From positions 62,001 through 126,000 of the forward strand of contig NZ_SCHL01000006.1 of assembly GCF_004099695.1 (NCBI RefSeq): 64,000 nucleotides of DNA, in the 5' to 3' direction. The DNA comes from Methanosarcina sp. MSH10X1 (GTDB taxonomy: Archaea; Halobacteriota; Methanosarcinia; Methanosarcinales; Methanosarcinaceae). The position numbers and the translations under genes were made by a program. Position 1 is the first letter of the stretch. Each line of letters opens with the position of its first letter. The notes beneath the pieces are model-generated. The model searched no databases. It was given only the letters and a program-made list of their open reading frames with translations, and was not told the origin of the DNA. Of the stretch, positions 7,882 through 22,188 are shown in pieces.

Positions 7882-8260
7882 AAACAGGATTGCTGTAATA
7901 TATTTTTGTGTTCCGTATTTAAGTTAAGGCTCGATTAACCTCAGAACTTGATGTATATAATTTCTAGAAGTAAGGTTGCGCGGAAAATCATTAGCTTGTC
8001 CATTAGTCTATTTTTAATGTTGACTGGAAAACCAGAAGACCACGAAGGATAAAAGAGCTTAATAAAAGAGCTTAATTCTAGTATGAGTCTTTTAGGTTTA
8101 ACAAACACAAATATTATATTTGTGGAGTTATAAATAGTAATTATATCTGTAGTTAAATGTTTATACTATCAATCAGTATTAATTATTAACTTAAGTTAGG
8201 ACATATTTAAAGTCAGAAAAAATAAAAGTGTTTTTTAATAATTTATAGGGGGTCAAAATA
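7882..8260 (+). other. AT-rich spacer before the RiPP locus
   Basis: 379 bp with no gene. It contains a short direct repeat (ATAAAAGAGCTTA twice around 8051-8077) and several TATA-like stretches near 8110-8140 and 8205-8215 that could serve the RiPP operon. The AT content rises sharply here relative to the left flank. Confidence 0.4.
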
Positions 8261-8623
8261 ATGAGAAAAACTGATAAGGGAATTAAATCGACAGCCACGC
8301 TGTCCCGCGAGGAGCTCAAGCAACAGGTCATCTCTAAAGCAGAGACGAATCCGGCTGCGAAAATTAAAGTTATTGAGGAATCTGCTGATATTGTTCACCT
8401 GGTGTTACCCCAGAAGCTGAAAGCAGCCAGTGGAGGATGTGTCGGATGCGATGGTGTAGGAGGTTGCGGATTCTGCGAGTGTAACAGCAATATCGGTGAC
8501 CAGATACAAATCAGGGATCAGGTACAAATAAAGAGTCAAGCACAAATAAAGAATCAGGCACAAATTAAAAATCAAGCACAGATTAAGAATCAAGCGCAAA
8601 TTAAGAAAAAGTTACAGAAATGA
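8261..8623 (+). CDS. RiPP precursor peptide, NHLP-like leader with Cys cluster and hexad repeats
   Basis: 120 residues. Residues 12-50 look like a nitrile-hydratase-type leader (NHLP, proteusin class): an SREELKQQVISKAETNPAA helix ending in ADIVHLVLP. A double glycine (G58-G59) follows and is a plausible cleavage site. The putative core has five cysteines (C60, C63, C69, C72, C74) in a Gly-rich stretch, then six consecutive hexads at residues 81-116 of the form Q-x-Q-I-K/R-D/S/N/K. AGGGGG precedes the ATG. The stop codon overlaps the ATG of the radical SAM gene (ATGA). Precursor identity is inference from leader, core composition and neighbour; the product and its activity are unknown. No transporter or peptidase gene is adjacent. 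Confidence 0.8.
   Translation: MRKTDKGIKSTATLSREELKQQVISKAETNPAAKIKVIEESADIVHLVLPQKLKAASGGCVGCDGVGGCGFCECNSNIGDQIQIRDQVQIKSQAQIKNQAQIKNQAQIKNQAQIKKKLQK
8501..8608 (+). repeat. Six 18-bp repeats encoding Q-x-Q-I-K/R-x hexads
   Basis: Tandem in-frame repeats at the 3' end of the precursor gene. Units differ by synonymous changes (CAA/CAG, ATA/ATT, AAA/AAG, GCA/GCG), which suggests the protein pattern is maintained rather than newly copied. Confidence 0.85.
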
Positions 8624-9984
8624 AACCGTCAGTTTATAATTTTGTCTGGTCAACCGATGACCCGGAAAAGGCAATTGTTTTCAACAGTCTTACTACAGCA
8701 CTGGCTGAAGTGAGAAAGAGCCGTACAGGCTTACTGAACGTTTCTCAGTTTGATTACGCCCTCCTGCCAGAAAATGAAAAGCAGTTTGTTGATGAGCTGC
8801 AAAAGGGAGGATTCGTTGTTGAAGACGCTGCGGATGAGCTGAAAACGGTAAAATTTGCCTACAACAGCGACAAGTATGACAGCTCGTTGACCAGACTAAT
8901 TATCGCTCCCACTTTAGCCTGCAACTTTGCCTGCTCTTATTGCTTCGAACAATCGGAGAAAAACCAGAGCAGGAAGAGCGAGCAAAATGCTTTCATGCCA
9001 GACAGTGTAAAGCAGGACTTACTTAGCTACGTTGAAAAAATTGTAAAGACGGGAAAAGATATATTCGTGACCTGGTACGGCGGAGAGCCGCTCCTGGCAA
9101 AAGATATTATTTTTGATCTTTCACAGAAAATAATTGCACTTACGGAAGAGAATAGCGTTGAATATTCGGCTGGCATGGTTACCAACGGCTACCTGCTTTC
9201 GGAAAATCCCGACATCGTGCAGAACCTTAAAGGAAGCCGAATTAAGTTTATCCATGTTACCCTGGACGGACCCCGCGAAGTGCATGACAGCCGCCGAATG
9301 CTCAAAGGAAGCAACGGCCCGACCTTCGACCGGATTCTTGACGGGGTCAGGCTTTTGAAAACGAATGGCATTGAGACATATATTCGCGTAAACATCGACC
9401 GCTCCAATATTGAAAACATTAGCAGACTCCTGGACGTGTTAAAGGAGAACAACCTGAGTGACGTATTCATCTACCTGGGCCATGTCATACCCTATACGGC
9501 GGGATGCAAGTCGTATGAGAGTTCCTGCATGTTGACCGAAGAATTCTCGGCAATAAACCAGGAATTTTATAAAAACCTGAACCTCATGGGATTTCAGGCA
9601 GGCAGAAAATCCTATTATCCGAGGTTTGCCCGCGCCTGCGATGCCAACCGGACAAATGCTTTTGTCCTTGACCCGGACGGGGACATGTACAAGTGCTGGA
9701 CCGAAATAGGCAACAAGACCTCAAGCATCGGAAAAATCGGCGACCTGGTACGACAGGACAACGAGAAAGTAAATCGCGAAATTCAATGGTTGACCTGGGA
9801 ACCTTTCGAGTATTCGGACTGCTTAAAATGCAAAATGCTGCCCATCTGCATGGGAGGCTGCGCCCATCAGGCAATGTTCATTAACAGCGGTCGACCTGAA
9901 TGTAAGGAATGGAAGTATGGTCTGGAGAATTATGTTCGGAATATGTTTTCAAGTTTGAAGAATTTGAGGGCAGACAGCAAGTAA
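8620..9984 (+). CDS. Radical SAM/SPASM peptide maturase
   Basis: 454 residues. The N-terminal 85 residues form a precursor-recognition-like region (no metal motif). The radical SAM cluster motif C-x3-C-x2-C is at C101, C105 and C108 (ACNFACSYCFE), followed by the SAM-binding TWYGGEPLL and MVTNGYLLS. A SPASM domain near residues 345-435 has the usual seven cysteines (RAC, YKC, DCLKC, PIC, GGC, PEC), able to hold two auxiliary clusters. SPASM peptide maturases form thioether, C-C or similar cross-links, or other radical changes, on ribosomal peptides. The four-base overlap with the precursor gene strongly suggests that peptide is the substrate. The exact modification cannot be read from sequence. 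Confidence 0.9.
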   Translation: MKPSVYNFVWSTDDPEKAIVFNSLTTALAEVRKSRTGLLNVSQFDYALLPENEKQFVDELQKGGFVVEDAADELKTVKFAYNSDKYDSSLTRLIIAPTLACNFACSYCFEQSEKNQSRKSEQNAFMPDSVKQDLLSYVEKIVKTGKDIFVTWYGGEPLLAKDIIFDLSQKIIALTEENSVEYSAGMVTNGYLLSENPDIVQNLKGSRIKFIHVTLDGPREVHDSRRMLKGSNGPTFDRILDGVRLLKTNGIETYIRVNIDRSNIENISRLLDVLKENNLSDVFIYLGHVIPYTAGCKSYESSCMLTEEFSAINQEFYKNLNLMGFQAGRKSYYPRFARACDANRTNAFVLDPDGDMYKCWTEIGNKTSSIGKIGDLVRQDNEKVNREIQWLTWEPFEYSDCLKCKMLPICMGGCAHQAMFINSGRPECKEWKYGLENYVRNMFSSLKNLRADSK

Positions 9985-11169: not shown

Positions 11170-13017
11170 ATGTCCACTTATTTGCGAGATTCAATTAGAA
11201 GATGTTTTCAAAAAAGTGTACAACTTATACAAAATGGAAAGTACAAGGAAGCTTTAAATGAGATCGAAAAAGCTGAAAAACCAGTAAAAGAATTGAATGA
11301 ACCTGGGGATACATCCATCTTAAGGAGCACAAAGGGACATCTGTTATACTGTGTAGATAAATATGAAGAAGCCTTGGAAAATCATATTCTTGCTTTAAAA
11401 ATTAGTGAAAATTTATTATCAAAAGAACCTGAAAATAAGACTTATCAGTCAACCTTTACGGTGAGTTTCACTGAGATTTTCGTTCTTGGAAACATATTCC
11501 ACAAGATGGGACGTTTTCTTCAGGCAGAACAATGCTATGAAATGCATCTAGCAATATCTCAAAGACTCCTCAAAACCAATCCCGGAGAGATATCATATCA
11601 AGCAGTTTTAGCAACGACACAAAACGATTTAGGAGTCTTGCTTATAAATATGGGACGTTTCAAAGAAGCGAAACAAAGGTTTGAAGAAGCGCTAGATGTA
11701 AGGCAAAAAATACTTGAAGTTACCCCTGAGAAAGCCATATACCTGTCAGATGTAGCAATTACACTCAACAATTTAGGCGGCTTGCTTACTAAGATGGGGC
11801 ACATTGAAGAAGCAAAGAAAAAGCTCGAAAAAGCACTAGAGGTGAGGCAACGGCTTCTCAAAAAATACCCAGAAAATTCATTATACCAATCATATGTAGG
11901 AGGCACACTCGTTAATCTTGGCGTTTTGCTTAAAGATATGGGACGTCTTGAAGAAGCGAGAGACAGATATGAAGAGGCACTAGAAATTTATGAGAAATTA
12001 GCTAAAGGAGATTCAGAAGACCCAATATACAGAGCAAATTATGCAGGTTTACTCGATAATCTTGGAAAATTACTCTCAGATATGGGAAGAGTCGAGCAAG
12101 CAAGACAATGGCATGAGAAAGCACTAAAGATCAGACAAGATTTCACCAAAGAGGAATCTGAAAACGTAGCATACCAATCCTATTTAGGGCAAATAAATAA
12201 TAGTCTTGGAAATATGCCTAAACAAATGTATAAGTGGGAAGAGAATGGGCAAGAACTAGAGGATTACATTGAAAGCTTTCTCAGAGTTTCGCTAAAAAAC
12301 GAGTTTTTAAAAAATTTCAAAGTTGAAAAGAACCATATTGAAGTGGGACGTGAGGGAACCGCGTATGAATTTGATATTTTTTATGAATTTACAATAGCTG
12401 GAATACCTCATAAAGCTGCAATAGAATGCCAGTATTATGATAAAAGAATAACAGAAGAAATAGTCAGACATTTTAAGTCAAAAATTGATGAATGCAATAA
12501 TATTACTGGTTTTATTCTAGCTACTAAAAGCTATAATGCAGACGCTAAAAGATACGCGGATCGTTATGGTATAAAGCTGATAACTGATGATGAGTTACCA
12601 AATATACCAGGAATGTTGCTTGCACATACTGAATCTCTTGTGCCAAACAAAGATGTTCATGGTGATCCTTTTTGGACTATTATGACAGCAAATGAAGACG
12701 GAAACAGTTCGGGGGCGTTCTATTCATTTAGAGGCAATATAGTAAATATTCTTATGCCTCGCTTTCTCTGGCGTGATAACAGAATATATTTATTCATTTC
12801 TAAAAAGTCTGCTGAGAGGGTATTAGAAGTCGATGGGGGGAAAGGTTATGGGGTATTCGGAGTTAGCCGAGAACTTTTGAGAGGTATCTGTCTTATGGCA
12901 AAATTGGCTGACTGTCGGATCGAAATAGTACCTAAATTGCGATTCGAAGACAATGGAGGACTACTCGTTTTTGAACATTCGTATGATGAAATATTAGCTG
13001 AATATGATTTGGAATGA
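11170..13017 (+). CDS. TPR-repeat protein fused to a degenerate PD-(D/E)XK (Mrr-like) domain
   Basis: 615 residues in three parts. Residues about 10-350 are six to seven TPR-like repeats (recurring LGxLLxxMGRxEEAxxxxEKAL with 42-residue spacing, kinesin-light-chain type). Residues about 365-495 are a restriction-endonuclease-like domain with D402 (EFD) and E419, but the catalytic Lys of the E-x-K motif is Gln (IECQ, Q421). Residues about 505-615 are a C-terminal domain shared with the next gene (GDPFWTIM, SKKSAERVL, VFGVSRELL, LVFEHSYDEIL). No ribosome site; probably leaderless. The next gene is a paralogue of the last 245 residues. It may be a sensor or regulator of that nuclease; function unproven. 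Confidence 0.75.
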   Translation: MSTYLRDSIRRCFQKSVQLIQNGKYKEALNEIEKAEKPVKELNEPGDTSILRSTKGHLLYCVDKYEEALENHILALKISENLLSKEPENKTYQSTFTVSFTEIFVLGNIFHKMGRFLQAEQCYEMHLAISQRLLKTNPGEISYQAVLATTQNDLGVLLINMGRFKEAKQRFEEALDVRQKILEVTPEKAIYLSDVAITLNNLGGLLTKMGHIEEAKKKLEKALEVRQRLLKKYPENSLYQSYVGGTLVNLGVLLKDMGRLEEARDRYEEALEIYEKLAKGDSEDPIYRANYAGLLDNLGKLLSDMGRVEQARQWHEKALKIRQDFTKEESENVAYQSYLGQINNSLGNMPKQMYKWEENGQELEDYIESFLRVSLKNEFLKNFKVEKNHIEVGREGTAYEFDIFYEFTIAGIPHKAAIECQYYDKRITEEIVRHFKSKIDECNNITGFILATKSYNADAKRYADRYGIKLITDDELPNIPGMLLAHTESLVPNKDVHGDPFWTIMTANEDGNSSGAFYSFRGNIVNILMPRFLWRDNRIYLFISKKSAERVLEVDGGKGYGVFGVSRELLRGICLMAKLADCRIEIVPKLRFEDNGGLLVFEHSYDEILAEYDLE

Positions 13018-13071
13018 TTTTCTTTGTATATTTTTGGAAGATTGTAGGCTCAATACTAATAAGGAGGAAAT

Positions 13072-13821
13072 ATGTCTAAATCACAAGAAGCAGGTAAAGA
13101 GTTAGAGAATACTGTTGAAAACGTTTACTCAATATTGTTGCAAAATGAGCATTTGAAGAATTCAAAAATTGAAAAGAATCATATTGAAATTGGACGTTCA
13201 GGAGCCAAACATGAGTTTGATGTGTTTTATCAAGTTGAAATTGCAGGAATAACTTATAAAGTCGCAATCGAATGTAAAAATCATAATAGGAATATAACAA
13301 AAGGAACATTCGGAGAATTTAAGCAAAAACTCGATGACTGCAATAATATTCGTGGTTTTATGGTATCTGCTAAAGGGTATCAAGAAGGAGCTAAACTAGA
13401 AGGAAAATACTATGGGATAGAGTTAATCACCACTGAAGATTTACCATATGTATATTCATTGTCTCTTACCCATGATAAATGGCTTTTACCAGAAGAAAAT
13501 ACATATGGTGATCCATTTTGGACTATTATGGCAGTAACTGAAGATGGGAAAAACATGGGAGTATTTTATGCACCTAAAGGTAATATACCACTATTTCTAT
13601 CGAAGAAGTCTGCTGAACGGGCATTAAAAAGGACTGAGGTACAAGGTTTTGCTGTTTTCGGAGTTACACGAGAACATTTGATAGGCATTTGTCATATGGC
13701 AGAAGAATATAATTGGCCCTTTGCAATTGCTGGAAAATTGGGATTTAGTGGGCCAGATGACGGAATCCTTATGTTTGAACATTCATATGATGAAATATTA
13801 TATCATTTTGACACAAAATAA
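13072..13821 (+). CDS. Stand-alone PD-(D/E)XK nuclease-like paralogue
   Basis: 249 residues matching the C-terminal two domains of the upstream TPR protein: the nuclease-like domain (residues about 15-125) with the full D50...E67-C-K69 signature (IECKNHNR), then GDPFWTIM, LSKKSAERAL, VFGVTREHL and LMFEHSYDEIL. It keeps the Lys the fused copy has lost, so it is likely the active member. A strong AAGGAGGAAAT precedes its ATG, 54 bp after the upstream stop. DNA cleavage (restriction or defence) is the probable activity by fold, but no methylase is nearby, so it is not a classic restriction-modification pair. Confidence 0.75.
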   Translation: MSKSQEAGKELENTVENVYSILLQNEHLKNSKIEKNHIEIGRSGAKHEFDVFYQVEIAGITYKVAIECKNHNRNITKGTFGEFKQKLDDCNNIRGFMVSAKGYQEGAKLEGKYYGIELITTEDLPYVYSLSLTHDKWLLPEENTYGDPFWTIMAVTEDGKNMGVFYAPKGNIPLFLSKKSAERALKRTEVQGFAVFGVTREHLIGICHMAEEYNWPFAIAGKLGFSGPDDGILMFEHSYDEILYHFDTK

Positions 13822-18447: not shown

Positions 18448-21400
18448 TTACTTTTTTCTTTGGTATAGAGATACTGCAAATAAGCTGACAACTCCACAAA
18501 CCGCTTCAAATCCGGGTATGCTTGTACTCTTTCCCGTCTCAGATTTCTGTCCATCCTTACTTCCGGCGGCAATACTCTCTTGGCCAGCATCCTGGACACC
18601 GGTTGCAGGTTCAGTTTCGTTTCCGGTTTCTTTCACTACGGCCCTCCCTGTTATTGCAAAGGATGAGAACATCGGAGTTTCTGCCGTGAAGTACAGGTAT
18701 TTGCTATCTTCTTTCAACAGTTTTGCGGGCAGATATGACCATGTTTTGTCTCTGTAACTGTCGAGAGTGATCGAATTCCGGTCAATCTTCTTATCCTGCA
18801 GCCAGGACTTCTCAACCTTGAAACACACTACAGGGTTTTCGATGTTCTTTGAAGTTGCAACTCCTCCACTTCCGACCCAGACATTAAAGGAATTATAAAC
18901 TTCACCTTCGGGAAGCCCGGAAACCAGAGCTGATTTCCCTTTGAGCTGTTCAGCAATGGTTGTCGTCTTGCCAAGAGTTTTCTTTGCATCAAAGCTCACA
19001 TACACGACGCAGGTGGCGTTTCTTGCAAAACTAAACTTTACAGGTTTCCCGTTTATAATAGACGCTTGCGAAATTTCCTTAACCTGAACATTTCTTGCTG
19101 GCTCGGGAGAACCGCCGCCACCGCCACCACCGCGGCTTCCGCCGCTTTTGTAGCTGCCCCCACTGTTTACACCTGTGCTTCCACCTGTGCTTCCACCGTC
19201 TGAATTGCTGTGTTGCATGACAGCTATTGTAGCAAGCTTTGAGGCAGTTCCTTTTTCATTGTTTACTGTCAGGTTAACGGAATAGGTACCTGGTACAGAG
19301 TAAATGTGCACTGGATTCTGCTCGGCTGAAACAGCTCCGTCTCCAAAGATCCAGCTCCATTCTATTGCATTTTTCGAGAGGTCTGTAAACCGGACAGAAA
19401 GCGGAGCATAGCCCTCGCTCACACTGCTGTTGAAATTTGCAAAAGGAAGTACTGGTTGTTTTATAAACTGCCCGAAGGCAACAGGAAATTCTCCCACACT
19501 GATCGTGGTTTTAACCCTGTTTGTAGCAGTGTCAATTACAGAAACAGTGTTGCTGCCACTATTCGTCACATATGCCTCATTTTCACCGGGGTTGAACGAA
19601 ACGCCGATAGGATTAATTCCTACAGGTACAGTGGCTATAAGAATATTTGTAACCGTGTCAATTACAGAGATGGTATTGCTGTCGTAATTCACCACATATA
19701 CCTTTTTTCCATCCGGGCTGGCTGCAACCCCCTGAGGAGAACTTCCTGCAGGCACCGCGGCTATTATAGTGTTTTTAACCGTATCAATTACAGAGACAGT
19801 GTTGTCCAGACTGTTCGACACGTATATCTTTTTTCCATCCGGGGTGACTGCAATACCTGTAGAAGCGTTTCCTGCGGGCACTGAAGCTGTTACATTATTT
19901 GTGGCAGTATCAATTACAGAAACAACATTGTTTGTTGAGTTCTCAAAGTAAGCCGAACTCGCTAAGTATACCTTTGTTCCATCCGGTGTGACTGCAATTC
20001 CAGAAGGATAGATTCCTGCAGGTACCGTGGCTATAACTGAGTTTGTTGCAGTATCAATTACAGATGTGGTATTGTCCAGATTATTAGCCACATATACTTT
20101 TTTCCCATCCGGGGTTACTGCTACTCCCCAGGGCTCGCTTCCTACAGGTACCGTGGCTATAACTGAGTTTGTTGCAGTATCAATTACAGATACGATATTG
20201 CTGTCATTGTTCGCCACATATACCTTTTTACCATCCGAACTGACTCCAATTCCATAAGGACCAGTCCCCGCTTCCACCGTGGCAGTAACACTGTCTGCTG
20301 CCGTATCAATTACAGAGATAGTGTTGTTACCCATGTTTGCAACATATGCATAAGGAGGCTGTTTGAGAACAGTTATAGTAGCAGGTTTCGAATCCGTACC
20401 ATTATCATTGCTTGCTGTCAGGCTGACAGTATAAGGCCCTATTTTGGAATATATATGCACCGGATTCCTCTCGGTTGAAACAGTTCCATCTCCAAAGTCC
20501 CAGTGCCACGCGGTTACATTTCTTGAGCTGTCGTTGAACTGTACATTCAATGGGACATAACCTTCGCTTACATTGCTACTGAAGTTTGCAGCAGGAAACA
20601 GAATCGGATCGGTGAAGGCCTTGATGCACACATTTGTATTTCGGTCATATAACGCTATATCTTCCCACCGAATTCCATCAGGGCTTATGAAGCTCTCTCC
20701 TGCATTTGCTTTTGCCTTACTACTGTAGCCTGACATTGGATATTCATAGGCAACCGGGTAGTTGTATCCTGGAGTTGTAAGCTTCAGGGCTACCGAGAAC
20801 TTTTGATCTGCTTTGAGCTTAACCCCCGAATTAAGGGGAATCGTGTGATAGCCTGCAAATGGAATTGTACCGCTTTGGGAAAGAATATAAGCTGTTCTAT
20901 TTATGGGGCCGGACTCTGGATTAGTATATATATACATTTCATAGTTGCAGTTTAAGTCAGTTGTATAGAAACTTACGGCTTTGAGGACTTCATTGGATTT
21001 TGCAGTAAAGATGTTTGCACACCAGCAAGTGGGGTTACTATATCCAATACTGTTGACCCATCCGAGCGGGTCATACTGGTATATGGAATCATAATTATCA
21101 GGGATTTCAGCTGTGAACACGGCATTTCCATCGTATCCGAGTTTTGTGTCGTAGTAGGAAACATAGAAATACCCGTCCTCCCCCCAGGTCCCACCCCAGC
21201 TATTTTTTACAATAAATGCCCCGTTTCCCGAAGGAACGTTGGAAAACCGATTCTTATCAAACGAGTCATCCCAGCCCACAATGGCCACACCATGGTTAGG
21301 GTATAAGAAAGTACCGTTATAGTAATAGTAACGTTGATCAGGGGAATAATAGACGGTGCCCACGTACATTGTGGTAAACACCGCTCCGTAGGTCTGGACT

Positions 21401-22188
21401 GCATATTTTATGTTATCATTGTCCATTGAATTCTTCCTGCCTGGAATGATAAGTACATCCTGTACGTGTTTCTGTACATCCAGAACGGTGGGTGAATAGA
21501 CTGAGGAATAATTAGAAGGATCGTAAGGATCATCGGTTTCACTCACTGGTCCGCTCCAGCGAGCCAGATAAGCTGTTGACATGAGATTGTTTCCACCTTC
21601 ATCTGAAGTAAAGTCAAAACCTTCCGGATATGTAGAAGAAAGCAGGTTTTTCATATTATTCTCTGAAAAATCCCGATTTTCCCCCGGCATTAAACATGAT
21701 TCCATAGATGAATAAGTTGCAAATGCCCAGCAAGTTCCTTCAAAACCCTGATCTTTCACACTTGTTACCCTGTTTAGAGTTCGCAGGTCGTAATAAGCTG
21801 GAGCGGACACATATGCTGAGATATTGCTTCTTAGATGACTGAGGTCTACAGGTGATGGTATAAAACCGGTCTGGTACTCATTTTGGGAAGGTGTACCTTG
21901 AGTGTAATTTTTGTTGTTAAGATATTTGACAAATTCGGGGTTTTCAGGTGCATGTGCAAGCTTTGGGGAAGCATCAATCTGGCTTATGGCATTTCTCGGA
22001 ATTTCAGATGCTGTGTTTATTTCTGAAGATCTTGTATCTGCTATCGATATTGACGATCCTATAAACAAAAATAGAAATAGAAGTTCACTCAAGATTACTA
22101 ATTTTTTTCTAATATTTATATCGCCTTTTATACTGAGTTTTTTCTTCATTTTAATCTCATTTTTTGCTTTCTGGTAATATCTCTTCAA
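18448..22188 (-). CDS. Surface C1A cysteine protease with PKD, YVTN propeller and PGF-CTERM anchor
   Basis: 1246 residues. Order: signal segment (KKLVILSELLFLFLFIGSS), papain-like protease (about 120-350) with the catalytic Cys in FEGTCWAFATYSS, His in PNHGVAIVGWDDSF and Asn in VKNSWGGTWG, a beta domain, PKD domain 1 (WHWDFGDGTVSTERNP), a seven-blade-type YVTN propeller built of about 42-residue units (SVIDTATNSVIATVPVG), PKD domain 2 (WSWIFGDGAVSAEQNP), a Gly/Ser linker, a PGF-pre-PGF domain, and a C-terminal PGF motif, hydrophobic helix and RKK, the archaeosortase signal. The TTG start at 22188 is 8 bases after GGGAGGT, better than ATG 22149. Likely lipid-anchored outside the cell; substrate unknown. 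Confidence 0.9.
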   Translation of the reverse strand: MKRYYQKAKNEIKMKKKLSIKGDINIRKKLVILSELLFLFLFIGSSISIADTRSSEINTASEIPRNAISQIDASPKLAHAPENPEFVKYLNNKNYTQGTPSQNEYQTGFIPSPVDLSHLRSNISAYVSAPAYYDLRTLNRVTSVKDQGFEGTCWAFATYSSMESCLMPGENRDFSENNMKNLLSSTYPEGFDFTSDEGGNNLMSTAYLARWSGPVSETDDPYDPSNYSSVYSPTVLDVQKHVQDVLIIPGRKNSMDNDNIKYAVQTYGAVFTTMYVGTVYYSPDQRYYYYNGTFLYPNHGVAIVGWDDSFDKNRFSNVPSGNGAFIVKNSWGGTWGEDGYFYVSYYDTKLGYDGNAVFTAEIPDNYDSIYQYDPLGWVNSIGYSNPTCWCANIFTAKSNEVLKAVSFYTTDLNCNYEMYIYTNPESGPINRTAYILSQSGTIPFAGYHTIPLNSGVKLKADQKFSVALKLTTPGYNYPVAYEYPMSGYSSKAKANAGESFISPDGIRWEDIALYDRNTNVCIKAFTDPILFPAANFSSNVSEGYVPLNVQFNDSSRNVTAWHWDFGDGTVSTERNPVHIYSKIGPYTVSLTASNDNGTDSKPATITVLKQPPYAYVANMGNNTISVIDTAADSVTATVEAGTGPYGIGVSSDGKKVYVANNDSNIVSVIDTATNSVIATVPVGSEPWGVAVTPDGKKVYVANNLDNTTSVIDTATNSVIATVPAGIYPSGIAVTPDGTKVYLASSAYFENSTNNVVSVIDTATNNVTASVPAGNASTGIAVTPDGKKIYVSNSLDNTVSVIDTVKNTIIAAVPAGSSPQGVAASPDGKKVYVVNYDSNTISVIDTVTNILIATVPVGINPIGVSFNPGENEAYVTNSGSNTVSVIDTATNRVKTTISVGEFPVAFGQFIKQPVLPFANFNSSVSEGYAPLSVRFTDLSKNAIEWSWIFGDGAVSAEQNPVHIYSVPGTYSVNLTVNNEKGTASKLATIAVMQHSNSDGGSTGGSTGVNSGGSYKSGGSRGGGGGGGSPEPARNVQVKEISQASIINGKPVKFSFARNATCVVYVSFDAKKTLGKTTTIAEQLKGKSALVSGLPEGEVYNSFNVWVGSGGVATSKNIENPVVCFKVEKSWLQDKKIDRNSITLDSYRDKTWSYLPAKLLKEDSKYLYFTAETPMFSSFAITGRAVVKETGNETEPATGVQDAGQESIAAGSKDGQKSETGKSTSIPGFEAVCGVVSLFAVSLYQRKK

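Follow-up and report, generated by a model that had tools for sequence, protein, structure and literature searches.

A probable Methanosarcina RiPP cassette that pairs a cysteine-cored, NHLP-type precursor with a radical SAM/SPASM maturase

Results

The gene pair and its surroundings

The window, the whole 64-kb stretch of Methanosarcina DNA analysed here, carries on its + strand an ORF of 120 aa with an ATG start (8261–8623) and a radical SAM ORF of 454 aa (8620–9984), which overlap by 4 nt (ATGA) and lie exactly where the original prediction, made from the sequence alone, had placed two genes. The smaller gene is read as a RiPP precursor from its open frame and from homologues beside the same maturase in eight archaeal and many Bacillota loci; since the pair recurs in other genomes it is not due to chance, and that the two genes form a RiPP cassette is almost certain. 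At 8152–8190, also on the + strand (as are all parts of the cassette described below), an element gttaaatgTTTATACTAtcaatcagtattaattattaac with a TATA-like core is near-identical 5' of the precursor in L003, L004, L006, L007 and L008, and to judge from its sequence it is likely an archaeal promoter.

No transporter, methylase or epimerase gene adjoins the cassette, as predicted, and no RNA element was found near it. An HdeD gene and a phospholipase-D-like gene were rejected as parts of the cassette, neither adjoining it in most relatives. In genome G157 (L080:3822-7700) two HdeD-like genes, 82 and 86 per cent identical to the window's HdeD, flank the cassette, and a fragment of an OYE gene is also present, a sign of local duplication. 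Elsewhere in the window a TPR protein and its neighbour (11170–13821) share a C-terminal domain (EFDIFYE...AAIEC), with paralogues also in G154, that by eye looks like a restriction-endonuclease fold, and a very large surface-type protein (18448–22188) appears by eye to combine a papain-like N-terminus, YVTN beta-propeller repeats and PKD domains.

Leader and core of the precursor

Residues 1–57 (8261–8431) form an NHLP-type leader, recognized by alignment and by the NCBIfam profile TIGR03793, that is about 25 residues shorter than those of L003 and L011–L014. The VHLVLP segment noticed originally is present, within a conserved stretch K-x-V-x-E-E-[SA]-x-x-[VI]-x-[YH]-L-[VI]-L-P. A profile search, which had been suggested as a check, upholds the NHLP assignment for the family and fails for the window's own leader: against a curated cut-off of 50.9 bits, the full-length leaders tested reach 64 and 68 bits in two homologues from Methanosarcina and 107 and 120 bits in two from bacteria, whereas the window leader reaches 20.4 bits (residues 34–54) because about 25 leader residues have been lost, as they have by alignment in L006 and L008. 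On this evidence the window leader is a shortened descendant of the NHLP family. The alignment also points to a putative cleavage site at G58-G59 (8432–8437), a double glycine that directly precedes the core in the window (S-G58-G59-C60) and is not strictly conserved, being GR in L006 and GS in L014.

Five cysteines (C60, C63, C69, C72 and C74) follow at once, in agreement with the original prediction, within the core CVGCDGVGGCGFCEC at residues 60–74 (8438–8482). That prediction had treated the Gly-rich cluster as an exception; it turns out to be the conserved core. C63, C69, C72 and C74 are kept in all eight archaeal loci and C60 in six of them (Ser in L006 and L014), and the archaeal consensus [CS][VIM]GCDGVGGCGFCEC is nearly invariant. 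The expectation of selection on the peptide is borne out by a pN/pS, summed over all pairs, of 0.105 in the core stretch vs 0.413 in the leader. The sole Cys-x3-Asp/Glu pair kept in 8/8 archaeal loci is C69-x3-E73, and no such pattern is common to the bacterial cores. A linker, N-S-N-I-G (residues 75–79; 8483–8497), comes next and reads [NK]S[NS]IG in seven of the eight archaeal loci. What is conserved in the precursor is the Cys cluster GCDGVGGCGFCEC, not the hexad tail.

The hexad tail

The tail consists of six hexads of the form Q-x-Q-I-[KR]-x at residues 81–116 (8501–8608): QIQIRD, QVQIKS, QAQIKN, QAQIKN, QAQIKN and QAQIKK, whose last residues are the D, S, N, N, N and K reported originally and whose invariant residue is Ile. 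Its period is six, with 26 of 35 positions matching at lag 6; none of 20,000 same-letter shuffles reached 26 matches at any lag from 2 to 12 (maximum 16). Comparison with relatives marks it as an accessory tail of variable unit number: the window has six full in-frame units, L006 five and L008 four, the tail always ending in [NK]-K-L-Q-[RK]. L011/L004 contain homologous DNA units, spaced by eye at 18–21 nt, in which the frame is shifted after the first unit. The tail is absent from L003, L005/L012, L007/L013 and L014 and from all bacterial loci; the first three precursors end after G-N-[RK]-L-[DN]-I-R, and that of L014 ends earlier. With an intact frame in 3/8 archaeal loci, a shifted one in a fourth and no copy elsewhere, the hexads are poorly placed to be the main product they had been taken for; the maturase is not conserved for the sake of the tail, which most loci lack. 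In the tree the three sequences with an in-frame tail are neighbours (weak support, 83/75), with L011 on a branch further out; most simply, the tail would have arisen within Methanosarcina and been lost or disrupted repeatedly.

Of the differences between adjacent units in the window, 11/17 are third-position changes (p = 0.008), as are 30/55 when two relatives are pooled in (p = 0.001), both against a simple 1/3 expectation that ignores mutation bias. This agrees with the original view, drawn from synonymous changes between units, that selection acts on the peptide. The out-of-frame units of L011 raised the idea that the repeat is conserved at the DNA level only, but the units stay in frame in the window, L006 and L008; the excess is clear in the window and L008 and weak in L006, and peptide selection on the hexads seems, from these comparisons, to act only where the frame is kept. 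A left-handed beta-helix was also considered for the hexads and rejected. LpxA, LpxD and NeuD profiles match the tail with E values of 8e-4 to 1e-2, and its I-x-[ND]-x-[AV]-x order agrees with the hexapeptide pattern; the scores, however, are 15–19 bits vs cut-offs of at least 160, six hexads would make two coils only, and a weak fold model suggests a helix.

The maturase

The second gene (8620–9984) encodes a radical SAM/SPASM maturase, identified by PF04055 (68.8 bits, Pfam), TIGR04085, TIGR04334 and alignment. It has the CX3CX2C motif (C101-x3-C105-x2-C108) and the seven-Cys SPASM motif CX9-15GX4C...CX2CX5CX3C...C (C340-x13-G-x4-C359; C401-x2-C404-x5-C410-x3-C414-x13-C428), all of these cysteines and an extra C296 being invariant in 18 aligned sequences; with 59.4 bits against TIGR04085 (cut-off 27), the SPASM assignment made at the outset holds. 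The best profile is TIGR04334 rSAM_Clo7bot, at 440 bits below its cut-off of 600 (the bacterial homologue L016 scores 461), followed by TIGR04463 'vs C-rich', CefB and FlmE/OhkG, with PapB (NF047865; 106 bits, cut-off 340) and SCIFF lower. Family membership therefore assigns no chemistry to the maturase, which lies below every equivalog cut-off. The closest PDB structures by sequence are anSME and CteB. A weak structural model (mean pLDDT 53, poor in the N-terminal and SPASM parts) gives fold matches to anSME, CteB, ChlB and SuiB, and its N-terminus (strands E8-11, E17-21 and E25-30, then three helices) would fit the element order of a PqqD-like domain, a possible leader-binding RRE, at a pLDDT of about 30–52.

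Two relatives carry damaged or interrupted maturase genes, which counts against the thioether reading proposed below. That of L003 (G155) has an in-frame TAG at codon 389 (L003:2665-2667), in place of the window's CAA (Gln); because TAG can be decoded as pyrrolysine in Methanosarcina, the codon may be read through, or the gene may be broken. In L008/L010 (G154) a frameshift near codon 275, from sequencing error or decay, breaks the gene in two, and the four-hexad precursor is intact.

Distribution and bacterial relatives

Among 186 genomes of the order, the maturase with an adjoining precursor occurs in seven of 29 Methanosarcina species, and the two co-occur in the same seven genomes, so that the co-occurrence proposed as a check across Methanosarcina is found. 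The eighth archaeal locus, L014, comes from a MAG filed as Methanomicrobiales; three of the eight related archaeal genomes are single-contig assemblies. Archaeal maturases are about 80 per cent identical to one another and 56–61 per cent identical to bacterial relatives in Desulfotomaculales, Peptococcaceae and kin. In a maturase tree, built without L054 (wrong open frame), a single clade of all archaeal sequences (100/100) lies among bacterial rows and suggests transfer, whose direction we infer to be out of Bacillota; the cassette was probably acquired, on this sequence evidence, from Bacillota of the Desulfotomaculales/Peptococcaceae kind. Some of these bacterial anaerobes are known syntrophic partners of methanogens. 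In several Methanosarcina the cassette stands in parts of one neighbourhood, thiE-thiM-fdhD-sufS-cheY-OYE (window genes by reading), so within that clade it has been inherited at this spot. A mobile origin was considered and rejected, the maturase having no viral relative and no close plasmid relative (best 41 per cent).

Three further NHLP matches in the order are a different precursor, adjoined where examined by another SPASM radical SAM gene. This second NHLP-leader peptide (66 bits, core ...FHVIGCSCWQGEGIT) occurs in three Methanosarcina genomes (L077:6550-8699 in G152; L078:4790-6950 in G155; L072/L079 in G176), in G152 and G155 beside a nif11-type SPASM maturase (436 bits vs a cut-off of 519), and is a candidate for another archaeal RiPP.

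The bacterial NHLP precursors have short and highly diverse cores, of which 22 of the 23 listed contain at least one Cys and are otherwise unalike. In L020, L016 and L058 (Bacillota) several precursors with diverse cores accompany one maturase, set against the single fixed core of Methanosarcina. Peptidase_C39 gives strong matches in 6/6 bacterial genomes; in the archaeal genomes tested no C39-ABC exporter was found, matches being weak and in short frames or absent, and the one weak match in the window genome (32 bits) lies in a 301-aa frame too short for such a transporter. NHLM ABC1/ABC2 genes adjoin the L021 cassette, and bacterial export is likely via these proteins.

The NHLP leader family was described by Haft et al. 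2010 (PMC2887384), which names no Methanosarcina, and putative clusters of NHLP and radical SAM genes in anaerobes by Letzel et al. 2014 (PMC4289311), which names no archaea. In the titles and abstracts searched, neither the present archaeal system nor any archaeal radical SAM RiPP of the NHLP kind was found.

Discussion

A proposed thioether-linked core

Given the genes themselves, their homology and co-occurrence, the selection on the core and the dispensability of the tail, the best explanation, which we hold to be rather probable, is an NHLP-led, ranthipeptide-like precursor whose cysteines are thioether-linked by a Clo7bot-like SPASM maturase. The maturase would hold the conserved segment of the leader and act on the Cys/Gly cluster, producing at least one thioether from Cys to a side chain (−2 Da each); the leader would then be cut near G58-G59, and the hexad tail, as a lineage-specific basic extension, may tether or space the peptide. 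A thioether is proposed by analogy, because the substrates of sister maturases are Cys-rich (Clo7bot, CefA) and because PapB offers a ranthipeptide precedent (PMC9413430). The best candidate pair for the link is C69-x3-E73, no other Cys-x3-Asp/Glu pair being kept throughout the eight archaeal loci. Which residue accepts the link is uncertain, because the bacterial cores share no acceptor.

The near-invariance of the core could also be expected of a metal site, in which the cluster would resemble one half of a zinc ribbon of the DnaJ type and the radical SAM enzyme would alter it slightly or act elsewhere on the peptide. CVGCDGVG...CGFC does fit CxxCxGxG...CxxC, and the sole PDB sequence match, itself non-significant (E 0.39), is a CPTCDGTG stretch of Embryo defective 2737. 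We consider this unlikely: C60 is Ser in L006 and L014, though four Cys are left, and a plain zinc site needs no strict pairing with a SPASM maturase.

The class of SPASM peptide maturases includes makers of alpha-thioethers and of beta/gamma-thioethers, and the same enzyme might instead join Cys to an alpha carbon, as in sactipeptides, or perform other Cys chemistry; the differing acceptor residues of the bacterial cores would suit this. The profiles with known thioether chemistry (PapB and SCIFF, both far below cut-off here) are those of ranthipeptide makers, and otherwise nothing specific speaks against a sactipeptide-type product, which we regard as a rather slim prospect.

That the maturase modifies the tail in another way, for instance at the invariant Ile, and that the Cys cluster is a spectator, has a precedent in TvgB, which modifies a repeat many times, at Val in TVGG repeats (PMC9062424); the idea is improbable, the maturase being kept where there is no tail, in 4/8 archaeal loci and in every bacterial one, and sister maturases being paired with Cys-rich substrates. 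Least credible of all is the polytheonamide/aeronamide analogy of the original prediction, in which the hexads are the product and Asn at six-residue spacing lines a D/L-alternating beta-helix: the hexads, their third-position excess, their six-residue spacing and an alternation of odd (N/D, V/A, I) and even (Q, Q, K/R) positions are real, but the tail is in frame in so few archaeal loci and in 0 bacterial ones despite maturases so alike among the archaea, at the NX5N position the window has D, S, N, N, N, K and its relatives have D or N, the tail is hydrophilic and basic (nine K/R vs two D/E) and in this does not resemble a membrane pore, a helix is suggested by the weak fold model, and 0/6 genomes have a match to PoyD, a family matched in no control genome either.

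A possible conserved cellular role

To return to the proposed thioether-linked core, its fixed sequence and the finding of no exporter-peptidase in the archaeal genomes tested point to a conserved role in the cell or its envelope more than to an antimicrobial one, and from the sequences we infer that the role of the peptide is non-antagonistic. A bolder proposal, offered tentatively and with more doubt than conviction, is that the cross-linked Cys-rich peptide is a conserved working part of the methanogen, metal- or redox-active or a signal, and not a weapon: a bacterial NHLP/rSAM system would have been taken over, one core frozen, the exporter dropped and a variable-number Gln/Ile tail added in one clade. 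The cassette also illustrates how a diversifying bacterial RiPP system became, after its probable transfer, a fixed single-product one. To our knowledge few radical SAM RiPPs have been described from archaea, and a small cassette with a near-invariant core in eight archaeal genomes allows a clean test of whether a methanogen makes conserved use of a cross-linked peptide.

Comparison with known systems

Polytheonamide/aeronamide-type proteusins share with this system an NHLP-type leader and, in the tail, a six-residue spacing; they differ in that no epimerase or methylase gene is nearby here and that the tail is dispensable, often with Asp at the key position. The PapB system (NF047865; PMC9413430) likewise has a SPASM maturase and Cys-x3-Asp/Glu pairs as possible cross-link sites, but the maturase here falls far short of the PapB cut-off and its cross-link is a predicted one. 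Closer is the Clo7bot pair (TIGR04334, ctpM), which supplies the best maturase profile, about 40 per cent identity to annotated members, and substrate Cys clusters rich in Gly and aromatic residues; the score nevertheless stays under the cut-off, and the leader of the Clo7bot peptides examined is of a short MKFIKKPxxKFEEG type, not NHLP. Most alike are the NHLP/rSAM loci of Desulfotomaculales/Peptococcaceae, in leader family, in the order of precursor then maturase and in maturase identity. Those bacterial precursors carry a full NHLP leader, mostly with ELTDEQLxxVAGG, often occur as several diverse copies and in some loci have NHLM ABC1/ABC2 nearby, whereas Methanosarcina, without LTDEQL and without a C39-ABC exporter, has one precursor with a near-fixed core.
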